Notes: generated from the letters alone by a model not told the origin. A stretch of DNA of 64,000 bases from Bryobacteraceae bacterium (GCA_026129905.1 JAHCHE010000021.1:62001-126000), one strand, 5' to 3'. Positions 7,378 to 22,332 are shown, counted from the first letter of the stretch. Numbers and translations: made by a program.

Positions 7378-8331
7378 TCACAAGGCCGCTACCTCCACCT
7401 CGCCCTTGCCCCACACGGTTTGGCGTCCGACGCCGGTCCACTGGGCGGCGCGGAGGAAAGGCGTGAATTCGGCAAGGGGGCCTTCGTATTCGGCTTCGCC
7501 AAGGAAGCCGCCGAGAGGGTGCGTAAGGCCGGTGCGGGAGGAGCGGCGCAGCGCGCGCGACTGGCGGAGGTCGCAGCGGGTCATGCGGACGCCGTCGGCG
7601 CGGGCGCCGATGGAACGGAAGTCGATCGGGAGCGGGCCGGGGCCATAGAGGGCGCGAAGGGTGCTCAGGCGGTCGCGGATTCGGCCAAATAGAATCGGGA
7701 ACTCCGGGCGGGCGGCGAGTTGCCGGCCGCTTTTGAGCTCCGTGGGGGTCACGAAGCGGACCAGGACGCGGGAGACAGGCTCGGGGTCCGGGTCGAGGCC
7801 GAGCGAAATGGGCTCGCGCGGCGGACGCAGTTGATGCGCGGCGCCGTCGAAGAGTTGGATGGACGGGTGGCGGTCGAGGCCGAGTTGATGCGCGGCGAGA
7901 AGATCGGCGCGCCCGCGGCGCGGTCCAATGCCGTCGCGGCCAAGCTGAGCGAAGGCGAGAACGAAGTGCGCCAGCGCCGGCTCGCGGCAATCGAACAGGT
8001 GGACGTCGAAATGAAACGACTCGCCCGGGGAGAACCCGCGGTCATCGAGATGAGAAGCGCGGAAGACGAAGGGACGGGGCCAGTCCGATAAGCCGCTGGG
8101 ACCGGCGCCGGCCGCGGCGGGCTCGAAGATGCGCGCGTAGGGGCACGTCGGCCGACGCTCGCAATCGGCGGGGCCCGGACAGCGCGGATCGCACGCCAGG
8201 CTGCGGAAGCTGGTCCCGAAGGCGCCGCGCACGATGTTGCCGGCCTTGCCCGGCGGGAAGCGAATCGCATCTCGCGCCGCGAATAGAAAGCGGAAGGCGA
8301 ACAGTTCGAAGCGCAGATCCGACGTGGACAC
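7378..8331 (-). CDS. Orphan Cas6-type RAMP protein
   Basis: 317 residues. The C-terminal part (about 272-314) has a Gly-rich Y-E-G-P-L-x-x-F-x-P-F-L-x-x-A-x-W-T-G-V-G-R-Q-T-V-W-G-K-G-E pattern typical of CRISPR Cas6 / RAMP endoribonucleases of the PF10040 group. The N-terminal half carries four cysteines (C47, C51, C57, C63) in a cluster that could bind metal; this is common in stand-alone relatives. No CRISPR array and no other cas gene is visible in 64 kb, so this is an orphan. Possible roles are processing of a distant array or an unrelated RNA-cutting task. Transcribed away from the CotH operon. Confidence 0.7.
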   Translation of the reverse strand: MSTSDLRFELFAFRFLFAARDAIRFPPGKAGNIVRGAFGTSFRSLACDPRCPGPADCERRPTCPYARIFEPAAAGAGPSGLSDWPRPFVFRASHLDDRGFSPGESFHFDVHLFDCREPALAHFVLAFAQLGRDGIGPRRGRADLLAAHQLGLDRHPSIQLFDGAAHQLRPPREPISLGLDPDPEPVSRVLVRFVTPTELKSGRQLAARPEFPILFGRIRDRLSTLRALYGPGPLPIDFRSIGARADGVRMTRCDLRQSRALRRSSRTGLTHPLGGFLGEAEYEGPLAEFTPFLRAAQWTGVGRQTVWGKGEVEVAAL

Positions 8332-8453: not shown

Positions 8454-10154
8454 GTGCGGGCGAATCCGACATGGGTGATGGACGAATCTGTCGCGAAATT
8501 GTCATCGCCCTGTAACCTGGCCGGTCGGCATTTGCGTTCAACAAAGAAGGAGAAGCTTGTCCTCTTGCTCCCGATTGCCGCGCCGCTGTGTCTCGCGCTG
8601 CTCCCGCGCGCCATGTTCGCCGACCAGGCGGGCGCGTTCTTCGACGACAGCGCGGTCCGGGAGATCCGGCTGACGTTCGCGGACTCCAACTGGTACAATA
8701 CGTTGTACCAGGCCCACTCAGGCAACACGGCCGATCCGTATTTTCCCGCCCGCTTCCAGTACGGAAGCATCGTGATCGACCGTATCGGCGTCCGCTTTAA
8801 GGGCAACTCGGCCTTTCGGCGAAACGGCGTTAAGAAACCGTTCAAATTGGATTTCAACAAGTACGACGATGCGGCGGACTTCTTGGGACTCAAGAAACTG
8901 AACCTTAACAATGGGGACCTCCAGCCGGACTTCCTGCGCGAAAAGCTGCTGCACGATTTCGCCGGGAAGTACGTGGCGGCGCTCCGGTCGGTCCACGCGC
9001 GCGTGTACATCAACGACGCGTACTACGGACTGTATCTCGCGGTGGAGCAGCCCGACAAGACGATGATGCGGAGCCGGTTCGGCAACGAAGAGGACGGCAA
9101 TCTCTACGAGGCGGAGGAGCAACTCGGCGGCGGCGCGACGCCCAACCTGGCCTATCTCGGCGCAAGTCAATCGGCGTATCAAAACGTGTACCTGCTCAAG
9201 ACCAACGAGGCCGCCAACGACTACTCGAGGCTGATCCGATTTCTGGACATCCTGAACAATACGGCGGCGGCGGACCTGCCCGCCCGGCTGGAACCGATCT
9301 GCGACGTCGAGAACTGGCTGACCGGCATGGCGATTAACAGCCTGTTCGTCAACCTGGATTCGTATCTCGGCGCCGGGGCGGAATACTATCTCTACGACCG
9401 ATCGAGCGACGGCCGGTTCATCCACATCCAGTGGGACCATAACGAATCGTTCGGAACCACGGGGGACGGCACGCCGCGCATCGCCGATCCCTTTGCGCTG
9501 GATCCGTTCTACCTGCCGTCAAGCAGCGGCGGCGCGCCTGGCGGAGGCGGCCGTCCGGGCGGGGTCGGAACCGCTGCCACGAGTGCGCGCCCGCTGCTGG
9601 AAAAGCTGTGGGCGGTGGACGCCTACAAGCGGCTCTACCTTCGGCTGCTCGCCCGCTTTCTGCGCGAGGGCTTCGACGCCTCCGGCATGGAGACGCGGAT
9701 TCGCCGCCAGTCGGATCTAATTCGCGCCGACGTTTACGCGGACCCGAACAAGGCCTTCACGAACGAGCAGTTTGAAACGTCGTTGAACAGCCAGGTGAGC
9801 GCCGCGGGACTCTCGATTCACGGGCTGAACCAGTTTGTGCGCGGGCGCTACAACTACCTGCGGCCGGCGCTGAACGCGTACGCGCAGGCCTCCGACGTCC
9901 GGCTGAACGAGCTGGCGACCGTAAACTCCGGAGGGTTCTATTCCCGTCTTCACGTACGACTCGACGCGGCAGCGCGTCGTCGCCGCGCCCCTGTCTCTCG
10001 GCGGCGCAAGCGACCAGGTCTACCTGGTTCTTTACGGTACCGGTATCCGCAACGCGCGGGACCTGGCGAAGGTGAACGTGCAGGTAGGCGACAAGGAGAT
10101 GCCCGTGCAGTACGCGGCGGCGCAGGGCGAGTACGCGGGGCTGGATCAGATTAG
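8454..10154 (+). CDS. CotH-like kinase, frame disrupted near its 3' end
   Basis: The frame encodes a CotH (PF08757) protein kinase-like domain after a hydrophobic leader (LVLLLPIAAPLCLALLPRAMFA). Family signatures seen are R-F-K-G-N-S-A-F-R-R-N-G-V-K-K-P-F-K-L-D-F-N, Y-Y-G-L-Y-L-A-V-E-Q-P-D-K, and I-Q-W-D-H-N-E-S-F-G, which correspond to the ATP-handling and catalytic loops. From about residue 495 the frame turns into Arg-rich noise, while the natural continuation is in the +1 frame to 10257 (next entry). The start is uncertain: GTG at 8454, ATG at 8478, or a TTG after AAGGAG near 8558. First gene of the CotH-VTC-DUF4956-HlyD-TolC block. Confidence 0.75.
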   Translation: MRANPTWVMDESVAKLSSPCNLAGRHLRSTKKEKLVLLLPIAAPLCLALLPRAMFADQAGAFFDDSAVREIRLTFADSNWYNTLYQAHSGNTADPYFPARFQYGSIVIDRIGVRFKGNSAFRRNGVKKPFKLDFNKYDDAADFLGLKKLNLNNGDLQPDFLREKLLHDFAGKYVAALRSVHARVYINDAYYGLYLAVEQPDKTMMRSRFGNEEDGNLYEAEEQLGGGATPNLAYLGASQSAYQNVYLLKTNEAANDYSRLIRFLDILNNTAAADLPARLEPICDVENWLTGMAINSLFVNLDSYLGAGAEYYLYDRSSDGRFIHIQWDHNESFGTTGDGTPRIADPFALDPFYLPSSSGGAPGGGGRPGGVGTAATSARPLLEKLWAVDAYKRLYLRLLARFLREGFDASGMETRIRRQSDLIRADVYADPNKAFTNEQFETSLNSQVSAAGLSIHGLNQFVRGRYNYLRPALNAYAQASDVRLNELATVNSGGFYSRLHVRLDAAARRRRAPVSRRRKRPGLPGSLRYRYPQRAGPGEGERAGRRQGDARAVRGGAGRVRGAGSD

Positions 10155-10257
10155 CGTGGGGCCTTTGCCGAAAGGACTGGCCGGAAAGGGCGAGGTGGAC
10201 GTGGACGTGCGGATCGACGGCCGCAGAGCCAACCGGGTGACGGTGAACATCCAATGA
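9940..10257 (+). pseudogene. Displaced C-terminal segment of the CotH-like gene
   Basis: In the frame one base ahead of the CotH frame the sequence reads IPVFTYDSTRQRV, then D-Q-V-Y-L-V-L-Y-G-T-G-I-R-N, V-Q-V-G-D-K-E-M-P-V-Q-Y and G-L-D-Q-I-S-V-G-P-L-P. This matches the beta-sandwich module (TIGR03437 type) that often ends secreted Solibacter-type proteins. A stop in this frame at 9922-9924 places the shift between about 9925 and 9950; removing one base near 9940 restores one reading frame. The segment ends TGA at 10255-10257, overlapping the next start by ATGA, like other junctions in the operon. Confidence 0.7.
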
Positions 10258-11117
10258 GCGTACTCTCGATGCCGGCGGCCGCGCCGCTCGCGGCCGCATC
10301 GAACGGCGTTGTCGACAGCGTTGTTTTTCAACGCTACGAGTTCAAGTACCTCATTGCGCCGGAGTTCGTCGAGCCGATCCGCAGGTTTATTGCGCCGTAT
10401 TGCGACATGGACCGGTTCGCCGGCCGGGAGCGCGATCGCTTCTACACCATCACCTCTCTCTATCTCGACACCCGCGGGTACAAATCGTATTGGGACAAGG
10501 AACACGACGCGCTGGCCCGGCTGAAGCTGCGCATCCGAACCTACGGCGAGGATTCCGACGGGCCGGTGAAATTCGAGGTCAAACGGCGCTTCAACGAAGT
10601 TCGCCGGAAATCGTCGGTTGAAGTCCCGCGCATCGGCTGGGAGGGGTTGTTGACCTCGCCGGCGAACGGCGATTCCTGGGAGTTCAGCGACGCGGAACGG
10701 CCGGCGTTGGACGACTTCCTTTGCCTGGTCCGGAGCATGGCGGCAAGACCGACGATGTTGGTCCGGTATCAGCGGCAGGCGTTTCGAAGCCGGCTGGACC
10801 GGTACGTGCGGATCTCGTTCGACCGCAAAATCTCGTATCAACCTGCCGCGGGCTACGTTCTGCCGGGGCGCGCGCGAAACTGGCGCGCCAACGACGATGC
10901 CGGGTCGCTGGACGAGAGCGGGCCTCGGATCGTGCTCGAGCTGAAATTCATGACCAAAGCTCCGCTCTGGCTGGTGGATCTGGTGCGCACTTTCGGGCTA
11001 ATGCGCCGCGGTTTTTCCAAGTATTGCACGGCGATGAACCGCGCGATGAACGAGCGGCGAACGGGTTCGGACCTGGCGTTGGCCGCGCCGGCCCGAGGGA
11101 TAATAGTCCGAAGATGA
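10254..11117 (+). CDS. VTC-domain (polyphosphate polymerase-like) protein
   Basis: 287 residues. VTC-domain features are visible in order: F-Q-R-Y-E-F-K-Y-L-I (about 23-32), S-L-Y-L-D-T-R-G-Y, L-K-L-R-I-R-T-Y-G, K-F-E-V-K-R-R-F, R-P-T-M-L-V-R-Y-Q-R-Q-A-F, and I-V-L-E-L-K-F. These basic and acidic residues line the tunnel of the CYTH-like fold that makes polyphosphate from ATP in yeast Vtc4. The start overlaps the stop of the CotH C-terminal segment by 4 bases and its own stop overlaps the next start (ATGA). In many bacteria VTC, CotH and DUF4956 genes travel together. Polyphosphate synthesis is inferred from the family; not shown here. Confidence 0.9.
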   Translation: MSVLSMPAAAPLAAASNGVVDSVVFQRYEFKYLIAPEFVEPIRRFIAPYCDMDRFAGRERDRFYTITSLYLDTRGYKSYWDKEHDALARLKLRIRTYGEDSDGPVKFEVKRRFNEVRRKSSVEVPRIGWEGLLTSPANGDSWEFSDAERPALDDFLCLVRSMAARPTMLVRYQRQAFRSRLDRYVRISFDRKISYQPAAGYVLPGRARNWRANDDAGSLDESGPRIVLELKFMTKAPLWLVDLVRTFGLMRRGFSKYCTAMNRAMNERRTGSDLALAAPARGIIVRR

Positions 11118-11797
11118 CCGAGTTGCTCAACTCGCTGGAAGGAAGCAGCGTCACGGATTTCCGGGTCGCGCTGGCGTCCATCCTGATGGCGTTCGCGCTG
11201 GCGCACCTGGTGGCCGCGGCGTACTCGTGGACGCACCGCGGTCTCTCTTACTCCCGCTCGTTTGTGCACACGCTGGTGATGGGCGGCGTGGTGGCGGCGA
11301 TGCTGATGCTGGCGATCGGAAACAACCTGGTGTGGGGGATCGGCATCGTCGGCACGCTGGCCATCATCCGGTTCCGAACCAATCTGCGCGATCCGCGCGA
11401 CATGGTGTTCATCTTCGCGGCGCTGGCCGCCGGGATCGCGGCGGGCGTGCGGGCATACGCCGTCGGCCTGATCGGGACGGTGATTTTCTGCGGCGTATCG
11501 GTGTACCTGAACAGCGTGCCGTTCGGAGCGCGCAACCAGTTCGACGGCCTGCTGCGGTTCACGCTGCCCGGCGCGAGCGACGCGACCCAGCGCATTCACC
11601 GTATCCTGCAGACGCACTGCTCGGCCTTTGTTCTGGCATCGCTTCAGCAGGTGGCGCTCGGCGACGAGACCGAGCACGCCTACCAGGTGCGATTCCGGCG
11701 CGACGAGTCGCGCCACGAACTGGTGCGCGATCTAGAGGAGGTCCGGGAGTTGACGAACCTATCGTTGCTGATGCAGGAGACGCAGGTGGATGTGTAA
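11114..11797 (+). CDS. DUF4956 membrane protein
   Basis: 227 residues from the ATG overlapping the VTC stop. Several membrane spans in the N-terminal half (FRVALASILMAFALAHLVAAA, FVHTLVMGGVVAAMLMLAI, VWGIGIVGTLAIIRF, FIFAALAAGIAAGVRAYAVGLIG) with the family's conserved R-F-R-T-N-L-R-D-P-R-D loop, then a cytosolic alpha-beta tail of about 85 residues ending in L-M-Q-E-T-Q-V-D-V. DUF4956 members sit beside VTC and CotH genes in many phyla and presumably anchor or channel the VTC product. 21 bases separate it from the HlyD-like gene. Confidence 0.9.
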   Translation: MTELLNSLEGSSVTDFRVALASILMAFALAHLVAAAYSWTHRGLSYSRSFVHTLVMGGVVAAMLMLAIGNNLVWGIGIVGTLAIIRFRTNLRDPRDMVFIFAALAAGIAAGVRAYAVGLIGTVIFCGVSVYLNSVPFGARNQFDGLLRFTLPGASDATQRIHRILQTHCSAFVLASLQQVALGDETEHAYQVRFRRDESRHELVRDLEEVRELTNLSLLMQETQVDV

Positions 11798-11818
11798 GCG
11801 GGCAAGCGGAGAGGGACG

Positions 11819-13885
11819 GTGACCGGATCGCTTGGGCGTTCGACGGCGCTCCGGCGCATGATGCCGGTGGCGGTTTGGCTGGCGGCGGTGGGCGGCGCGT
11901 ACTGGCTGTATCGCGATACGGCGGGCGCCGGGCAGGCAGGCGGCGTCGCGGAACTGAAGGAGTTCACGGTTTCTTCGGTCGAGACCGGCGCGCTGGTATC
12001 GGTGGAAGCGGTCCCTGGACAACTCGTCTCGCGGGGACAGGTGGTTGCGCGGCTGGACCCGCAGATCCTCGAAACCGAGATCGCCGTGGCCGAAGCGGAA
12101 CTCCGGGAGTTGCAGGCGAAGGTGCCGGCGGAATTCAAAACCCTCGAGCTGAGCGGGCTTCAGACGGAGCGGACGTTTCGGGCGGAACTCGAGGCGGTGG
12201 AGGTGGAGCTGCAAGCGGCCCAGTCCGGTTCCGCCAGAGACGGCGCCGAACTGGCGAGCATCGACGAGGAACTGGCGCGCCAGCGGGACCTCGTCGCCCG
12301 CCGCCTGGCGACCGCCGCTCGCATGAAGGAACTCGAGCTGCGGCGGGCGGCGGTGGAAGAATCCGCCAAAGGTTGGCCCGCGAGGCTGGAGGCGCTGGAA
12401 ACCCGGCGGCAGGCAACGCGCGCCCGACTGGCCGAGTGGCGGCGGAGCCTGGCGGGCGCCTCGGCGCGGAGCGCCCGGAGCCAGCAGATTCTGCCGCTGC
12501 AACTTCGCATCGACACGCAGCGCGAGTACCTGACGCTGCTGCGGAAGCGGCTGGAGAACCTGACGCTGCGAGCGCCCGCCGATGCCCGCGTAGTGGCGAT
12601 CCTCGCGCGTCAGGGCTCCGTGTTGATGCCCGGCCATCCCATCATGACGATGGTGGAGGCCGATCCGCGGCAGGTGATCGCGTACCTGGAGGAAGACCGC
12701 GGCCCAAGCGTGTCCGTGGGCGATCGGGCGGTGCTGCGCACGCGCTCGCGGACGGGCGAGCGGGTGGAGGGCACGGTGACGGGCGTGGCCGCGACGGTCA
12801 TCCAACTCCCGCAGCGATTCTGGCCCGCCCCGACGCGGCCGCGATGGGGACGCGAAATCTTCATCCGCATCAGCCCCGATCACAAGCTCGATCCGGGCCA
12901 GGCAGTGGACGTCAGCTTCTACCCGAAGGGCCATAGCATGGGATTCGCCACGGCAGTGGAGGCGGCGCCCGCCGCGGCGAGGATCGACGCGAGTCCGCAG
13001 CCCCTGGCGGTCCCTGGCGGGCTTCTGGACCGGAGCCGGTTTGAGCCCTCCGGGATTATATGGGCAGAGCGGCTCCAGCGCTACATCCTGGTCAGCGACG
13101 ATACAGGCCTCGAATCCGCCAACGACAACGCTCCGTGGGTCTTCACGATGTCCAGGGACGGCGAGGTTGACGCGGAGCCCCTGGTGATCGAGGGGGTCGA
13201 GGCGGTCAACGACCTGGAGGCCCTCGCATCGGCGCCCGACGGAACCATCTATCTCATCGCGTCCCAGTCCGTGAACCGGAAAGGCAAGCGAAGACCCGCC
13301 CGAACGGTCTTCGTCCAGGCGCGGCTGGAGGGCCGATCGCTCAAGGTCGTCCGGCGGGTTTTTCTTCACCAACTGCTGGCCGAGGCCGCGGCGCGAGAGC
13401 CGGCGCTGCTCGGCCGGCTCGGTTTGACCTCCAGGCCGGACACAGGTCCGTGGTTGGAAGCGGAAGGGCTTGCGTGCCGCGGCAACGAAGTTTTTCTGGG
13501 GCTGAAGGACCCGCTGGACGGAAGCGGAAAAGCGCTCATCCTGCGCATTGCCGATCCGGACCGGCTGTTTCGCGAAGGCTCGTTGGCGGGCCTGACGCTC
13601 TGGAGCAAAACGTCGCTGCCGGTGGAAGGCCGCCCGGCGGGCATTTCCGGGCTTCTCTTTCTTGACGACGGAAGCCTGTTGATGGCCGCGACGAACGACC
13701 ACGGCGGCGCCTTGTTCCACGCGCGGAGGCCCGGCGGGCCGGAGCTTGAAGCGGAACAAATCGCCTCGTATCCCGGATTAAAGCCGGAAGGCCTGTGCCT
13801 TTCTCCGGAAGGCGACAAGCTTATCGTCATCTTCGACCGCCAGGACGAAACGCCGCTCTGGGCGCGCCTGGAGATCCCTCGATGA
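11819..13885 (+). CDS. HlyD-type membrane fusion protein fused to a DUF3616/phytase-like propeller
   Basis: 688 residues, GTG start. A single N-terminal membrane span (MMPVAVWLAAVGGAYWL) precedes a lipoyl-like half (V-E-A-V-P-G-Q-L-V-S-R-G-Q-V-V-A-R-L-D), a long coiled-coil hairpin (about 80-250), the second lipoyl half (L-R-A-P-A-D-A-R-V-V-A-I-L-A-R-Q-G) and a beta-barrel to about residue 375: a complete HlyD adaptor. The remaining 300 residues are a second domain with E-P-S-G-I-I-W, N-D-L-E-A-L-A-S-A-P-D-G-T-I-Y-L and E-A-E-G-L-A-C-R-G-N-E-V-F-L-G-L-K-D-P. These resemble DUF3616 / esterase-like phytase-type beta-propellers. This joining is unusual. No ABC or RND pump gene accompanies it. 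Its stop overlaps the TolC-like start (ATGA). Confidence 0.8.
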   Translation: MTGSLGRSTALRRMMPVAVWLAAVGGAYWLYRDTAGAGQAGGVAELKEFTVSSVETGALVSVEAVPGQLVSRGQVVARLDPQILETEIAVAEAELRELQAKVPAEFKTLELSGLQTERTFRAELEAVEVELQAAQSGSARDGAELASIDEELARQRDLVARRLATAARMKELELRRAAVEESAKGWPARLEALETRRQATRARLAEWRRSLAGASARSARSQQILPLQLRIDTQREYLTLLRKRLENLTLRAPADARVVAILARQGSVLMPGHPIMTMVEADPRQVIAYLEEDRGPSVSVGDRAVLRTRSRTGERVEGTVTGVAATVIQLPQRFWPAPTRPRWGREIFIRISPDHKLDPGQAVDVSFYPKGHSMGFATAVEAAPAAARIDASPQPLAVPGGLLDRSRFEPSGIIWAERLQRYILVSDDTGLESANDNAPWVFTMSRDGEVDAEPLVIEGVEAVNDLEALASAPDGTIYLIASQSVNRKGKRRPARTVFVQARLEGRSLKVVRRVFLHQLLAEAAAREPALLGRLGLTSRPDTGPWLEAEGLACRGNEVFLGLKDPLDGSGKALILRIADPDRLFREGSLAGLTLWSKTSLPVEGRPAGISGLLFLDDGSLLMAATNDHGGALFHARRPGGPELEAEQIASYPGLKPEGLCLSPEGDKLIVIFDRQDETPLWARLEIPR

Positions 13886-15195
13886 TGACGGCCGGGCGCT
13901 TGGCCGGCCTTTTGCTCGCGGCGGTTGTGGTGACGGGAGCGCTGTGGGCCGAGAGCGGCGCCGGCGGCGGATTACGGAACGCGACGGCAACCCAGGACGC
14001 CGGCGTGGATCTTTCGCAGGGGTTGACGCCGAGGGAAGCGGTCTCGCTCGCGCTGAAGCGCAACCGGCGCCTGATGGCGCTCCGCAAAGGGCGGCTGGCG
14101 GCCGAGGGCGGCGTTTACGAGGCCACAAGACTCCGGGACCCGGAACTGCGGACGGGCCGGTTCGATTTCTCCGACGATTCGGCCGGCCTCTGGAGCCAGA
14201 ACTACAGCCTGGCGTTGCGCTGGTCTCCGCCCCGGATCGGCGAACGGAGGTTCAAGGGCAACCAGGCGACGGCCAAGGTCGACGAGATGGACGGCGAGAT
14301 CGCCGCCGCCGAGCAGGAGCTTGCCGAAGAGGTCCGGCTTCTCCACGTAACGATTGCGTTGATGGATCAACAGATCCAATTGGCGGATCGATCCGCCCAA
14401 TTGCGGGAACAAATTGTGCAATTTGTCGAAAGCCAGGTGGAAGCGGGAACGAAGAGCCTGCTCGACCAGAGCATAGCGGAATTGGCGCTGGCCGACGCCC
14501 GCGCCGCGCCGGAGGCGTACCGGCTGGACCGCGATCTCTCGATGAGCCGACTGGCGGGCGAGTTGGATCTCCCGCGTTTGGCGCGGTTCCAGATTCGGCC
14601 GGACAGGAATCCGGTGGATTTTCATCCCCAGATCTTCGACGCGCCGAGGCTGGTGGAAACCGCGCTGGCCCGACGGCCGGAACTGGCAATCGCGGCCGCA
14701 CAGTGCTCGCAAGCGGGCGCGACGCTCCATCTGCGCGACGGGGAACGCTACCCGTGGCTGTCGTTCGTGCAACTCAGCCGGGAGTTCGGCGCTTTCCGAT
14801 CCGATACATGGGGTTTTCGGGTCGGCATCGAAGTCCCCGTTTTCAAGTGGAGCCACCGGTTCGTTCAAGGGCCCGCGGCGGAAGTGGACCGGTGCGCGCT
14901 GGAGACGGAGGCGGAGCGGAACCGGATACGGCTGGAAGTGGAGGACCTGGTCGAGCGGCTGCACGCCCGGCAGCGGGAACTCGAGTACCACCTGCACAAG
15001 ATTGCCCCGCTGGCGGACCGCGACGTGGAGATCGCGGAGCGGGCGGTGGCGGCCGGAGAGGCGGACATGCTTCAGCGCCTCACGGCCGAGGCGCGCAACC
15101 TGGCCCGGCGTCAAGCGTACTTGACGAAGCTCGCCGAGTACCGGCGGCTCGAGATCGAACTGGACCGGGCGGTAGGCCAGGCAATTCCGGAATAA
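13882..15195 (+). CDS. TolC-like outer membrane factor
   Basis: 437 residues from the ATG overlapping the preceding stop. Signal peptide (LAGLLLAAVVVTGALWA), then the usual TolC/OEP arrangement: L-T-P-R-E-A-V-S-L-A-L-K-R-N at the start, long helical segments with Ala, Gln and Glu-rich heptads, a central beta segment (LWSQNYSLALRWSPP), and an internal second half starting R-L-V-E-T-A-L-A-R-R-P-E-L-A-I-A-A-A. It would form the periplasm-spanning and outer-membrane duct partner of the HlyD protein. Last gene of the operon; a stem-loop follows at 15200-15231. Confidence 0.85.
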   Translation: MMTAGRLAGLLLAAVVVTGALWAESGAGGGLRNATATQDAGVDLSQGLTPREAVSLALKRNRRLMALRKGRLAAEGGVYEATRLRDPELRTGRFDFSDDSAGLWSQNYSLALRWSPPRIGERRFKGNQATAKVDEMDGEIAAAEQELAEEVRLLHVTIALMDQQIQLADRSAQLREQIVQFVESQVEAGTKSLLDQSIAELALADARAAPEAYRLDRDLSMSRLAGELDLPRLARFQIRPDRNPVDFHPQIFDAPRLVETALARRPELAIAAAQCSQAGATLHLRDGERYPWLSFVQLSREFGAFRSDTWGFRVGIEVPVFKWSHRFVQGPAAEVDRCALETEAERNRIRLEVEDLVERLHARQRELEYHLHKIAPLADRDVEIAERAVAAGEADMLQRLTAEARNLARRQAYLTKLAEYRRLEIELDRAVGQAIPE

Positions 15196-15238: not shown

Positions 15239-16576
15239 CTAATCCTTCACGTTCCTTACGGTTCCGTCTTCGGTGATGTGCGGATAAGGCCCGCGTTCCC
15301 AAATTCGGACGGAAACGAGGGGGAAATCGTACTCCGGGGTGGGCTCGAAGTAGCCCGGATAGCGGAGGTGCTCCTTCACCGCGTCGTCGTTCAGTTCGAC
15401 GCCAAGACCGGGCTTCTCCGGGACTTCGATGAAGCCGTGGTTGACGATCGGTTTGGCAATGCCCGTAACGAGGTCGTCCCACCACGGGATGTCGACGGCG
15501 TGGTTCTCCATGCTGACGAAGTTGCGGACCGTGGCGGCGCAATGGACCGACGCCATGCAGCCCACCGGCGAACCGGCGAAGTGGAAGGCCGTCGCAATGC
15601 CGTAGCGTTCGGCCAAGTCAGCGATGGCTTTGGTCTCACGAATGGCGCCGGAGGTTTCCGGATCCGGATGAATGATGTCGACGGCGCGGTTTTCGATGAG
15701 GTCGCGGAAGCCCTCGACTCCGAAGGTGTTTTCCCCGGTAAGGTTGGGCGTCAGCACGGCATCGGTGATCTCCTTGAATCCGCGCCAGTCGCGCCAGTCG
15801 ATGATGTCTTCCAGCCAGGCGAGTTCGAAGCGGTCAAAGGCCTTGCCCAGCCGGATGGCATCGGGAACGCTGAGCCGGCCATAGTGATCGGTGCCGAGCG
15901 GAACGTCGTAGCCGATCGCGTCGCGGACGGCCTCGATGTACTCGCCCATGTACGCCAGGCCTTTTTCGGTCGGCGATCCGTCGCGCAACGCGCCCGGGCG
16001 GTCCTTCACCAGGCCCACGCCGACGTCCATTTTGAAGAACGTGAATCCCTGCTTTTTCCGGTCGAGCATGCGGCGGGCGTAGACTTTCGCGTCGGTAGAG
16101 GGCGTGGTATCGCAATAGACGCGAATCCGGTCGCGGAGCTTGTCTCCGATGAGCCGGTAGGCCGGCACGCCGTACACCTTGCCGGCAATGTCGTGCAGGG
16201 CCATGTCGATGGCGCTGAAGCCGCCGCCTAACCGGCCGTGTCCGGAATACGGGCGCAGCAATTCGAGGATCGAGTGGATGTGCAGCGGATTGCGCCCCAG
16301 GATGTGGGGCTTGAGGACGAGCGCCTGGCCCCGGACGCCGCCGTCGCGGACCTCGCCGAGGCCGTAGACGCCCTGGTTGGTATCAATGCGGATGATAGGG
16401 TAATCGAAATTCGACGCGACGGTGCAGGCGCGGATGTCGGTGATCTTCAAATCGCTGGGCGCCGAATTCCGGTTGAACGTGGTGGAAGGTTCCGGAGCGG
16501 CCGACGCGGCCAGGCCGGAAAAACCTGCCGCGCCGAGCAGCGACCGGCGCGGAATCCCTGTTTCACGGATTTCCAT
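15239..16576 (-). CDS. Tat-exported mandelate racemase/muconate lactonizing (enolase superfamily) enzyme
   Basis: 445 residues starting at the ATG preceded by CAGGAGATACTCT. The twin-arginine leader is G-I-P-R-R-S-L-L-G-A-A-G-F-S-G-L-A-A-S. The barrel shows the superfamily's acid-base and metal sites: F-F-K-M-D-V (barrel strand 2, K-x-D), G-T-D-H-Y-G, A-W-L-E-D-I, T-G-E-N-T-F-G and a late F-H-F-A-G-S loop. Mg-assisted proton abstraction from a sugar acid or related carboxylate is expected; the substrate cannot be named from sequence. Tat export suggests it folds before leaving the cytoplasm. A second such enzyme lies at 37522-38826. Confidence 0.85.
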   Translation of the reverse strand: MEIRETGIPRRSLLGAAGFSGLAASAAPEPSTTFNRNSAPSDLKITDIRACTVASNFDYPIIRIDTNQGVYGLGEVRDGGVRGQALVLKPHILGRNPLHIHSILELLRPYSGHGRLGGGFSAIDMALHDIAGKVYGVPAYRLIGDKLRDRIRVYCDTTPSTDAKVYARRMLDRKKQGFTFFKMDVGVGLVKDRPGALRDGSPTEKGLAYMGEYIEAVRDAIGYDVPLGTDHYGRLSVPDAIRLGKAFDRFELAWLEDIIDWRDWRGFKEITDAVLTPNLTGENTFGVEGFRDLIENRAVDIIHPDPETSGAIRETKAIADLAERYGIATAFHFAGSPVGCMASVHCAATVRNFVSMENHAVDIPWWDDLVTGIAKPIVNHGFIEVPEKPGLGVELNDDAVKEHLRYPGYFEPTPEYDFPLVSVRIWERGPYPHITEDGTVRNVKD

Positions 16577-16723
16577 AGAGTATCTCCTGGTACTCAATGG
16601 TATCGATTTCGGATGGAAATGTCCGCGAAGATCGAACCCGGCGGCGCGATCGACGAGGCGATCTCGCGGCAAAGGCCGCGCGCGCCGTCAAGGCGAGGGT
16701 GGAGGGTCCGCCCAACGGCGGCG

Positions 16724-19208: not shown

Positions 19209-19748
19209 TCATGCTCCGGCCGTGGGCTCGAAGGACCAGGCCGGCGGCGCGATGCCCTTAAGGCGGAGATAGACGATCGTCTGGCCGCGATGGTGGGCGG
19301 TGTGGGTGTAGGCGCGGAGGCAAAGGTCCACGCCACTGTGCGGTTTGAACCGCGGCGCGCCGAGGTCCGCGCGGAGCAGATCCTTTTCGCTCAGCTTCTT
19401 CAACACTTCGATCGTGTAGTCCCAGGATGCGTCGATGTAGCCGCGCACAATCTCCTTACCGGCGCCGGCCGGGGGTTCGGGCGGGGGCGCCAGACCGAAG
19501 GCCGAGAAATATCGGGTGTTCGCTCCGGCCAGGTGAACGAACTGCTCGCCGAACGATCGCTGGACCGGGTGGGGTTTGAACTCGTATTGCTCGGCGGGCA
19601 TGGCGTCGGCCACCGCCAGCGTGTAGCCTCGCTCGACCTGCCAGTGGCGGAGAAAACTGTCGCGAAATTGAAGGACGAACGAACCGGTTTGAGCCACCGC
19701 GGGCATGGCGGCGCCGGCCAAAGCGGGAAGAACGTGACGGCGTCTCAT
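19209..19748 (-). CDS. DinB-family metal-binding protein, exported
   Basis: 179 residues with a leader MRRRHVLPALAGAAMPAVAQ. The remainder is a four-helix DinB/YfiT-like fold: F-L-R-H-W near the start, F-G-E-Q-F-V-H-L-A-G-A in helix two, and a late A-H-H-R-G-Q motif. The histidines of V-H-L and H-H-R-G-Q are the usual metal ligands. DinB-like proteins include thiol-dependent transferases, but most, including secreted ones, are uncharacterised. Divergent from the ADOP permease gene. Confidence 0.8.
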   Translation of the reverse strand: MRRRHVLPALAGAAMPAVAQTGSFVLQFRDSFLRHWQVERGYTLAVADAMPAEQYEFKPHPVQRSFGEQFVHLAGANTRYFSAFGLAPPPEPPAGAGKEIVRGYIDASWDYTIEVLKKLSEKDLLRADLGAPRFKPHSGVDLCLRAYTHTAHHRGQTIVYLRLKGIAPPAWSFEPTAGA

Positions 19749-19926
19749 GGGTTTTCATGCTACCAAGCCTCGCGCTTGGCGCGGCGCGGGCGCGGGTGAA
19801 GCGGGCGCAACGATGTCCGATTCCGACGTGAGGCGTCCCACAACCGAACAGCGGGCGGGCCCGCGGCTTCGGCAGGTGAGGGCGCTTTCTTTGGCGCCGG
19901 GATTGCCGGGCGTACGAGAGGAAGTC

Positions 19927-22332
19927 ATGGCTTCGTTTCTGCGCGATCTGCGACACGGGTTCCGTCTTCTGGTCAAGGCGCCGGCTCTCACGTTTCTCGC
20001 GATTCTGACGATATCGATCGGGATCGGGGCGAACACCGCGATTTTCAGCCTGCTGAACGCCGTCTTACTTCGACCGCTGCCGTTTCCCGAGCCGGACCGG
20101 CTGGCGATGATCTGGGAGGCGACGCCGCTGTTCGGGCTGCGCTACAGCCCGGCGGCGCTGGGCAACTACGTCGACTGGCGTTCGCAGAACCGGGTATTCG
20201 AGGAGATGGGCGCGTTGGAGCGATGGGAGTACCGGCTCTCGGGAGACGGTCCGCCGGAGATGGTGGTGGGCGCGGTGGCGACGGCGAGCCTGTTCCGCGC
20301 GTTGCGCGTTGGGCCGGCGATTGGGCGGCCGTTTGCGGAGGCCGACGATCAGCCGGGCGCGCGGCGGGCGGTCCTGGTCAGTTATGGGCTGTGGCAGCGG
20401 CGATTGGGCGGGAATCCGGATCTGGCGCGGTTGTCATTGCGGGTGGATGGAGAGCCGTACGGCGTGGTGGGCGTGATGCCGAGGGAGTTCCAGTTTCCGG
20501 AGACCGGGACCGAGATCTGGCTGGCGGCGGGGGCTCGATACGACGCGCGGGAGTACGCCAGTCGCGGGCGGCACAACCTGGCGGTCGTGGGACGGTTGAA
20601 GGCCGGGGTCACGCTGGCGCAAGCGAACGAGGAGATCGGCGCGATTGCGAAGCGGCTCGAGGAGAGCTACCCGGCGACGAACCGTGACGTGGGCGCTTTC
20701 GTCACGCCGATGCGGGAGCACATGGTGGGGGACTCGGGAAAATGGCTGGCGATCGTCTTCGCGGCCGTCTGCTTCGTGCTGCTGATCGCCTGCGCGAACG
20801 TCGCGAATCTGTGCCTGACGCGGGCGGTGGCGCGGCGGCGCGAGATCGCGGTGCGCGTTTCGTTGGGCGCCGGGCGGGCCAGGATCGCGCGGCAATTGGC
20901 CGCGGAGAGCCTGTTGCTCGCAGCCGCCGGGGCTTTGGGCGGATTGCTGATCGCGGCCTGGAGTTTCACGCTTCTTGAGCGGCTGATCCCGAGCCAGCTC
21001 GAGCCGGTGACGACGCTTGCGCTCGATTGGCGGGTGCTCGTCTTCACGCTCGCTATCAGCGTCGCGTCGGCGCTGCTGTTCGGGCTGGCGCCGATTTCGC
21101 AGGCGCTGCGGGTAGACCTGAACACGGCGCTGAAAAGCGGCGGCGAGCGGACGGGGGACGCGAGCGACAGCGCCCGGCTGCGAAACGCGCTGGTGGTTGG
21201 GCAGGTGGCGTTGGCGGTGGTGTTGGCGGTGGGCGCGGGCTTGCTCCTCCGCACGCTGGCCGCGTTGCGGGGCGTCGATACGGGACTCCGGCCAGAGCGG
21301 CTGCTGACGATGACCGTGCCGGTATCCGGCGCCCAGTACAACGATCCGGCGACGCGGGAGCGGTTCTACCGCGAAGCGGTGGAGCGCGTGTCTTCGCTGC
21401 CGGGCGTTGTCTCAGCCGGATTCACGACGGGCGTTCCCCTGGTTTTCAAGGGCTGGCACGTGGGGTTCGTGCCGGAAGGGCACGATCCGTCCGACGCCGC
21501 CCGGGACAGCGTGAGATACCGGGTGGTAACGCCCGACTATTTCCGGACCATGGGCATCCCGCTGCGGCGGGGGCGCAACCTGAGCGAAGCGGATGGGCCC
21601 GAGAGCCCGCGCGTGGCGCTGGTGAACGAGGCGCTGGCGCGCAAGTACTGGCCGGGTCAGGATCCGGTGCAACGGAGATTTCAGGTTAGCGGCCGATGGG
21701 GCACGGTAGTAGGTGTAGTGGCGGACGTGAAGCAGGTGGGGCTGGATCAACCGGCGGCGCCGGAAGTCTACCTGCCCTACCGGCAGGAAGCAACGATGCC
21801 GGCGGGCTTCGCCGTACGCGCCTCCGGTGATCCGAAGATGCTGGCGGCGGCCATCCGCGCCGAGGTCGCGGCCATCGATCCCGAGCAGCCGGTGACCAAC
21901 ATCCAGACCATGGAGGAGGCGATCGACCGGGAGCTGTTCAGCCGGCGGACGCAGATGTCGCTGATCGTCTGTTTCGCGGCGCTGGCGTTGGGGCTGGCCG
22001 CGGTGGGCATCTATGGGACGCTGTCGTACTTTGTGACGCAAAGGACGGCGGAGATCGGGATCCGGATGGCGCTCGGGGCGCAAGGGCGGCATATCCGGCG
22101 GGCGGTGCTCGGCCGGGCGCTCGCGCTGGTCGGGTGCGGGATCGCGGCGGGGACGCTGGCGGCATTGTTGTTGACGCGGCTGATGTCGTCCATTCTGTTC
22201 GGGGTGAGCCCGCGCGATCCCGCGGTGTTCCTGGGGATCGCGGGCGTGTTGCTGGTTGCGGGCGCCGCGGCGGCGTATGTCCCGGCGCGGCGAGCAATGC
22301 GGCTGGACCCGGTGCAGGCGCTGCGGCGCTAA
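19927..22332 (+). CDS. ADOP-type ABC transporter permease
   Basis: 801 residues from the ATG after GAGAGGAAGTC; an open frame extends 60 codons upstream without conserved sequence. It has the layout of the acidobacterial duplicated orphan permeases: an N-terminal membrane span (LTFLAILTISIGIGANTAIF), a MacB-like periplasmic core domain, three spans of an FtsX domain (FAAVCFVLLIACANVANL...), a second MacB-like periplasmic domain and a second FtsX domain ending A-R-R-A-M-R-L-D-P-V-Q-A-L-R-R. The cytoplasmic N-terminal domain usual in the family is missing or reduced. No ATPase gene is adjacent, as is normal for this orphan group. Substrate unknown. Confidence 0.9.
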   Translation: MASFLRDLRHGFRLLVKAPALTFLAILTISIGIGANTAIFSLLNAVLLRPLPFPEPDRLAMIWEATPLFGLRYSPAALGNYVDWRSQNRVFEEMGALERWEYRLSGDGPPEMVVGAVATASLFRALRVGPAIGRPFAEADDQPGARRAVLVSYGLWQRRLGGNPDLARLSLRVDGEPYGVVGVMPREFQFPETGTEIWLAAGARYDAREYASRGRHNLAVVGRLKAGVTLAQANEEIGAIAKRLEESYPATNRDVGAFVTPMREHMVGDSGKWLAIVFAAVCFVLLIACANVANLCLTRAVARRREIAVRVSLGAGRARIARQLAAESLLLAAAGALGGLLIAAWSFTLLERLIPSQLEPVTTLALDWRVLVFTLAISVASALLFGLAPISQALRVDLNTALKSGGERTGDASDSARLRNALVVGQVALAVVLAVGAGLLLRTLAALRGVDTGLRPERLLTMTVPVSGAQYNDPATRERFYREAVERVSSLPGVVSAGFTTGVPLVFKGWHVGFVPEGHDPSDAARDSVRYRVVTPDYFRTMGIPLRRGRNLSEADGPESPRVALVNEALARKYWPGQDPVQRRFQVSGRWGTVVGVVADVKQVGLDQPAAPEVYLPYRQEATMPAGFAVRASGDPKMLAAAIRAEVAAIDPEQPVTNIQTMEEAIDRELFSRRTQMSLIVCFAALALGLAAVGIYGTLSYFVTQRTAEIGIRMALGAQGRHIRRAVLGRALALVGCGIAAGTLAALLLTRLMSSILFGVSPRDPAVFLGIAGVLLVAGAAAAYVPARRAMRLDPVQALRR

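Follow-up and report, generated by a model that had tools for sequence, protein, structure and literature searches.

A conserved VTC-DUF4956-HlyD-OEP operon in Acidobacteriota, a candidate pump-less apparatus for polyphosphate synthesis and export

The yeast VTC complex couples the synthesis of polyphosphate to its passage across a membrane without a separate pump, and Vtc4 is inactivated by the substitutions R264A/R266A/E426N (PMC9911596). For the XcsAB-TolC system, pump-less export of cellulose has been proposed, by way of TolC, a synthase and an HlyD-like adaptor; the scheme is unproven by experiment (PMC12430437). One study did not find the gene trio encoding CotH, VTC and DUF4956 anywhere but at Pel loci; Pel level and aggregation are altered there when the genes for DUF4956 and CotH are deleted in Streptococcus intermedius, indicating that the trio can serve a polysaccharide, and MgtC is described not as a channel but as regulating ATP synthase and phosphate uptake (PMC12345266).

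We identified the same trio in a soil-type bacterium of the phylum Acidobacteriota, in one operon with a HlyD-type adaptor and an outer membrane duct of the OEP family. The trio is already known; the adaptor and the duct are new. No paper joining VTC or DUF4956 with HlyD and TolC was found in the searched literature, which excludes subscription journals and preprints, and within that coverage the gene system is unnamed, as the initial annotation supposed. We consider the gene system to be real and conserved, and infer its cargo and its motor.

The window, that is the whole stretch of DNA that was analysed (64,000 nucleotides; GCA_026129905.1 JAHCHE010000021.1:62001-126000, Bryobacteraceae bacterium), contains CotH, VTC, DUF4956, HlyD and OEP on its plus strand, spanning positions 8454-15195 (Table 1), and all five Pfam matches score above their cut-offs. 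Read from the DNA, the shifted CotH frame ending at 10257 overlaps the VTC start by ATGA, the VTC TGA (11115-11117) overlaps the DUF4956 ATG (11114) in the same manner, a gap of 21 bases separates the DUF4956 stop (11797) from the HlyD GTG (11819), and the HlyD TGA (13883-13885) again forms an ATGA overlap with the OEP ATG (13882). These junctions, together with the Pfam matches, bear out the proposal that the five genes form one tightly packed operon. The families and the packing stand as first described, with two corrections: CotH is frameshifted, and HlyD is a fusion. The genes flanking the operon on either side are encoded on the opposite strand or have no relation to it, the 3' neighbour of OEP being a mandelate-racemase family gene (15239-16672, opposite strand). 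A gene for a Cas6-family endoribonuclease (7378-8331, minus strand; PF10040, E 1.8e-14) lies directly upstream and divergent from the operon, and we saw no CRISPR array, since the whole window has no 20-mer in three or more copies.

Table 1. Coordinates, strand and supporting matches of the operon features in the window.
Feature	Position	Strand	Evidence
CotH-family secreted kinase (PF08757), predicted	8454..10257	+	Pfam CotH 4e-51; TIGR03437 1.8e-12 in shifted frame
VTC-domain polyphosphate polymerase, predicted cytosolic	10254..11117	+	Pfam VTC 1.4e-38; 3G3Q profile match
DUF4956 inner-membrane protein, MgtC-like	11114..11797	+	Pfam 1.4e-10; AF2 model
HlyD/EmrA-type periplasmic adaptor	11819..13003	+	HlyD_3 4.5e-14; AF2 model; EmrA match
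Phytase-like beta-propeller, C-terminal part of adaptor gene	13004..13885	+	PF13449 E 9.2e-5, below cut-off
TolC/OEP-family outer membrane duct	13882..15195	+	OEP 2.1e-23; private subfamily

The VTC protein, of 287 aa, consists of the VTC domain alone: an SPX domain, a predicted TM segment and a glycosyltransferase domain are all absent from it by Pfam and by its sequence. Its profile matches the Vtc4 structure 3G3Q (E 1.5e-11), and nine residues that are invariant in 11 relatives (K31, R93, R95, K110, Y172, R174, R186, E229 and K256) align to Vtc4 K200, R264, R266, K281, Y359, R361, R373, E426 and K458, so that the alignment predicts a VTC/TTM domain with a basic tunnel and the catalytic R264, R266 and E426 (Vtc4 numbering). 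The bacterium's own genome (G000, 98% complete) has one VTC gene, and PPK1 (PF02503) was not found in it. A role for VTC as a replacement for PPK1 was considered and rejected: PPK1 is patchy in the family, and as it is present in two operon genomes (G285, G293) and missing from many genomes without the operon, we found no link between the operon and PPK1 loss.

The CotH frame that opens at 8454 stops at 10154 with its kinase domain intact, and the second half of a C-terminal TIGR03437 domain (Solibacter domain) sits in the next frame, ending at 10257; the gene therefore carries a frameshift near 9935-9945, in the stretch 9915-9950 and 3' of the kinase domain, which is either real or an assembly error. 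The protein aligns to the CotH structure 5JD9 (E 2.2e-7) with the aspartates of its NxD and WD motifs in register, and is a predicted kinase with a hydrophobic, signal-like N-terminus.

For DUF4956, the AF2 model (pLDDT 76) contains TM helices at residues 16-40, 48-68, 72-87, 94-111 and 115-134, followed by a C-terminal alpha-beta domain. A fold search with this model matched residues 145-226 to ACT/ferredoxin-like folds (Z about 10), indicating an ACT-type domain at the C-terminus; the same search had no MgtC structure among the matches listed and no informative match for the TM part, and is therefore silent on the TM fold. By profile-profile comparison (hhalign), the TM part resembles MgtC over 113 columns with a probability of 87%, where a reversed control reached 0.9%, the MgtC profile having contained three wrong-frame rows, which dilute rather than favour a match; the Pfam MgtC model itself scores below cut-off (E 0.018). 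An RFRT...RD..D stretch is mostly invariant across 17 diverse DUF4956 members, and by the positive-inside rule this stretch and the C-terminus are probably cytosolic. A search of plasmids for DUF4956 returned three distant Gram-positive matches.

The gene annotated as HlyD is a fusion, in which residues 1-395 form the adaptor and residues 396-688 a weakly matching Phytase-like beta-propeller. The adaptor model (AF2, pLDDT 84.7) comprises a TM anchor (7-34), a lipoyl domain, a hairpin of helices 82-160 and 166-246, and a beta-barrel; the alpha-hairpin is of 80 residues, and the nearest PDB match is EmrA (4tko, E 5.6e-20). EmrA-type adaptors serve pumps without large periplasmic domains. The propeller is missing from the other ten adaptors, and its comparison with PDB sequences gave chance-level matches to unrelated proteins. 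A free-standing, lipoprotein-like relative of the propeller (370 aa, E 3.5e-11) is encoded at 1231-2343 on the minus strand of locus L099.

We gathered relatives of the operon among 84,980 species genomes with DUF4956 as the sole query, which kept HlyD from influencing which loci were retrieved. The DUF4956 subfamily (SH-aLRT 99% for its 12 rows) comprises 12 loci, 11 of which are from Acidobacteriota, and in 10 of these 11 relatives VTC, DUF4956, HlyD and OEP are found in the same order and tightly packed, with the contig of L032 ending inside OEP. HlyD and OEP do recur beside DUF4956, a point that the initial annotation had proposed as a check, within the Acidobacteriota relatives of this subfamily. 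The exception, L026 (L020; JACPPJ010000082.1), which at 72% identity is nearer to the window gene than any other relative, reads VTC-DUF4956-Porin_O_P-CotH-purple acid phosphatase (with a TIG domain), a phosphate-selective-porin family protein thus taking the place of HlyD-OEP. CotH lies 5' of VTC or 3' of OEP in most loci and is non-adjacent in L029, L030 and L034; we therefore take the core to be the four genes VTC-DUF4956-HlyD-OEP, with CotH as a frequent and the least constant member. In L013 (5233-8883) and L035 (5435-9191), a tandem CotH pair precedes VTC, the first copy having, by eye, EF-hand-like repeats.

With profiles of HlyD and OEP built from operon members, we searched 299 genomes of the class, in which many other OEP genes are present. 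The HlyD profile found five genomes at E<=1e-150, exactly the operon carriers, with the next best at 4e-25, and the OEP profile five copies at E<=2.4e-157, again exactly the operon carriers, with the next best at 1.3e-27; high scores are expected for operon members, as the profiles were made from them, and the information lies in the gap below. HlyD and OEP thus appear, across these 299 genomes, to be subfamilies private to the operon. Pairwise distances of VTC, DUF4956, HlyD and OEP are strongly correlated (Mantel r 0.90-0.95, p 1e-4), as expected for co-inherited genes.

DUF4956 is carried by 19 of the 299 genomes of the class and by 57 of 396 in the phylum. The association would have been accidental, according to the initial annotation, if HlyD and TolC genes were missing beside DUF4956 in nearly all relatives; this is true for the phylum as a whole, in which the survey of Acidobacteriota found HlyD after DUF4956 at 16 of 87 loci, and false in the gene's own clade, where 14 of the 16 members (SH-aLRT 92%) have it, the other two HlyD loci falling in a second place. 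In other classes, VTC-DUF4956-HlyD occurs without an adjoining OEP in L061, L071 and L078, the adaptors of which score 1e-41 to 1e-45 against the subfamily profile, and more distantly in L050 and L056 (about 1e-23), showing that the link of DUF4956 to HlyD is wider than that to OEP. A second, different arrangement, of DUF4956 with CotH and with no VTC found nearby by local profiles, is present in many Acidobacteriota among L038-L097 (e.g. L077, L080, L082 and L084).

We additionally scanned the flanks of ten loci (71 proteins) for pumps. Neither these recurrent flanking families nor the operon include an ABC, RND or MFS protein, and of the components of a tripartite efflux pump we thus found the HlyD adaptor and the TolC-family duct, and not the pump, for which a distant gene elsewhere in the genome may exist. 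The nearest pump-like gene in the window, recognised from its sequence, is an orphan FtsX/MacB-type permease (19747-22332, plus strand) past several minus-strand genes. Synteny, private subfamilies and co-divergence rule out a chance adjacency of HlyD-OEP and, with no pump recurring nearby, give good support to the earlier idea of a joint system without a pump.

We propose that the operon encodes a pump-less, envelope-spanning apparatus for the polymerisation-driven synthesis and export of polyphosphate, a reading to which we attach a little less than even confidence. Its fuller form, about which we are more reserved, is a polyphosphate secretion system in which VTC and an MgtC-like DUF4956 channel would feed an EmrA-like adaptor and then a TolC-like duct, with polymerisation as the sole motor, placing polyphosphate on the exterior of a Gram-negative cell. 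Cytosolic VTC would string the gamma-phosphate of ATP into a chain, as its conserved active site supports. DUF4956 may use its ACT-like domain and its conserved RFRTNLRDPRD loop, both on the cytosolic side, to tether VTC to the inner membrane, and may form or gate the passage across it. Polymerisation itself could power translocation, as in the yeast VTC complex, and no ABC, RND or MFS pump would then be needed. The EmrA-like adaptor, judging by its fold and by its being a private, co-diverging and syntenic partner, would dock on DUF4956 and bridge to the OEP duct. Exported CotH could draw on the product at the cell surface or act upon it, for instance as a kinase of a surface protein or of the matrix, which is the weakest step, and the adaptor-fused propeller might conceivably trim or bind phosphate esters. 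A phosphate theme in the variants (Porin_O_P and purple acid phosphatase in L026, the Phytase-like fusion here) counts for polyphosphate, with the reservation that these genomes may commonly encode Porin_O_P and phosphatases. The five HlyD loci of other classes without an adjoining OEP, and the three operons without an adjacent CotH, count against the export model.

The initial annotation's suggestion that DUF4956 stands in the pump's place, with polyphosphate as a possible cargo, depends on a channel role for DUF4956 that is the weakest central step, as MgtC-type relatives are regulators. The strongest rival is that DUF4956 is an MgtC-like regulator of VTC and of phosphate or energy balance, that the polyphosphate remains internal, and that HlyD-OEP exports another product through a partner encoded elsewhere. 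The profile likeness to MgtC and the ACT-like C-terminal domain agree with this, as does the reading of a streptococcal DUF4956 homologue as MgtC-ACT (PMC12345266). We nonetheless regard it as rather unlikely, given that the HlyD and OEP subfamilies occur solely here, right after DUF4956 and co-diverging with it and with VTC, and that no pump recurs beside the operon. TolC ducts are often encoded away from their pumps, which is a further point in favour of a distant partner.

Polyphosphate as the product is also contested by the possibility that the operon serves an exopolysaccharide or a phosphorylated surface polymer, with CotH-VTC-DUF4956 as accessory module and HlyD-OEP as the secretion route. 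Pel operons of streptococci, clostridia and bifidobacteria do have CotH, polyphosphate polymerase and DUF4956 beside them (PMC7112168), but a glycosyltransferase is found neither in the operon nor among its recurrent neighbours, and PelG is absent from the bacterium's own genome, which rules out a Pel link there, and likewise from 10 of the 11 operon genomes, making this explanation unlikely. The presence of the trio in genomes without PelG contradicts its reported absence outside Pel loci (PMC12345266). That the system instead exports a CotH-phosphorylated protein or small molecule, with VTC supplying or buffering phosphate, is very improbable: CotH has an exported N-terminus, aligns with a CotH kinase structure and adjoins the operon in most loci, but it is the least constant gene where VTC is always there, and the flanks of ten loci yielded no substrate gene that recurs.

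Should the preferred reading, polymerisation-driven export of polyphosphate, be true, pump-less export by synthase, adaptor and duct would extend from polysaccharides to an inorganic polymer. The operon also points to a function for DUF4956, a membrane family that is widespread and so far seen just as an accessory gene. To our knowledge, there is no known exporter that explains extracellular bacterial polyphosphate, and the operon provides a small, concrete gene set for probing polyphosphate at the surface.

Among known systems, the MgtC/SapB family resembles DUF4956 in its TM domain, by profile comparison, and shares with it a C-terminal ACT-like domain, but its Pfam score here is below cut-off and it has no tie to HlyD/OEP or VTC. 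The EmrAB-TolC MFS pump has the same long-hairpin adaptor fold (4tko being the best PDB match) and a TolC-family duct, whereas no MFS pump is found in the operon or recurrently nearby. The Gram-positive pel accessory genes, CotH-VTC(PPP)-DUF4956(-DUF4832), cluster the same three families (PMC7112168), with DUF4956 also read as MgtC plus ACT (PMC12345266); the operon differs in having no Pel gene and in the addition of HlyD and OEP. The cyanobacterial XcsAB-TolC likewise combines a polymer synthase, an HlyD-like adaptor and a TolC duct without a pump (PMC12430437), a likeness that here is one of gene content alone. Its cargo is cellulose and its BcsA-like synthase has its own channel, whereas VTC has neither a TM nor a glycosyltransferase domain, and the channel role would fall to DUF4956; its genes are scattered in Thermosynechococcus vulcanus, in contrast to the single operon with VTC and DUF4956 described here. 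The eukaryotic VTC complex (Vtc1/Vtc3/Vtc4) resembles the operon in pairing a VTC domain, which here has all the tested catalytic residues, with a small multi-TM protein, and in synthesis-coupled translocation as the proposed logic (PMC9911596). It differs in that the operon lacks SPX and encodes polymerase and membrane part as separate genes, that DUF4956 is MgtC-like, with five helices and an ACT-like domain as opposed to the three helices of Vtc1, and that the exit would be the cell surface as opposed to the vacuole. The operon would thus join the logics of yeast VTC and of cyanobacterial XcsAB-TolC, bringing known folds and a known export logic into a new combination.
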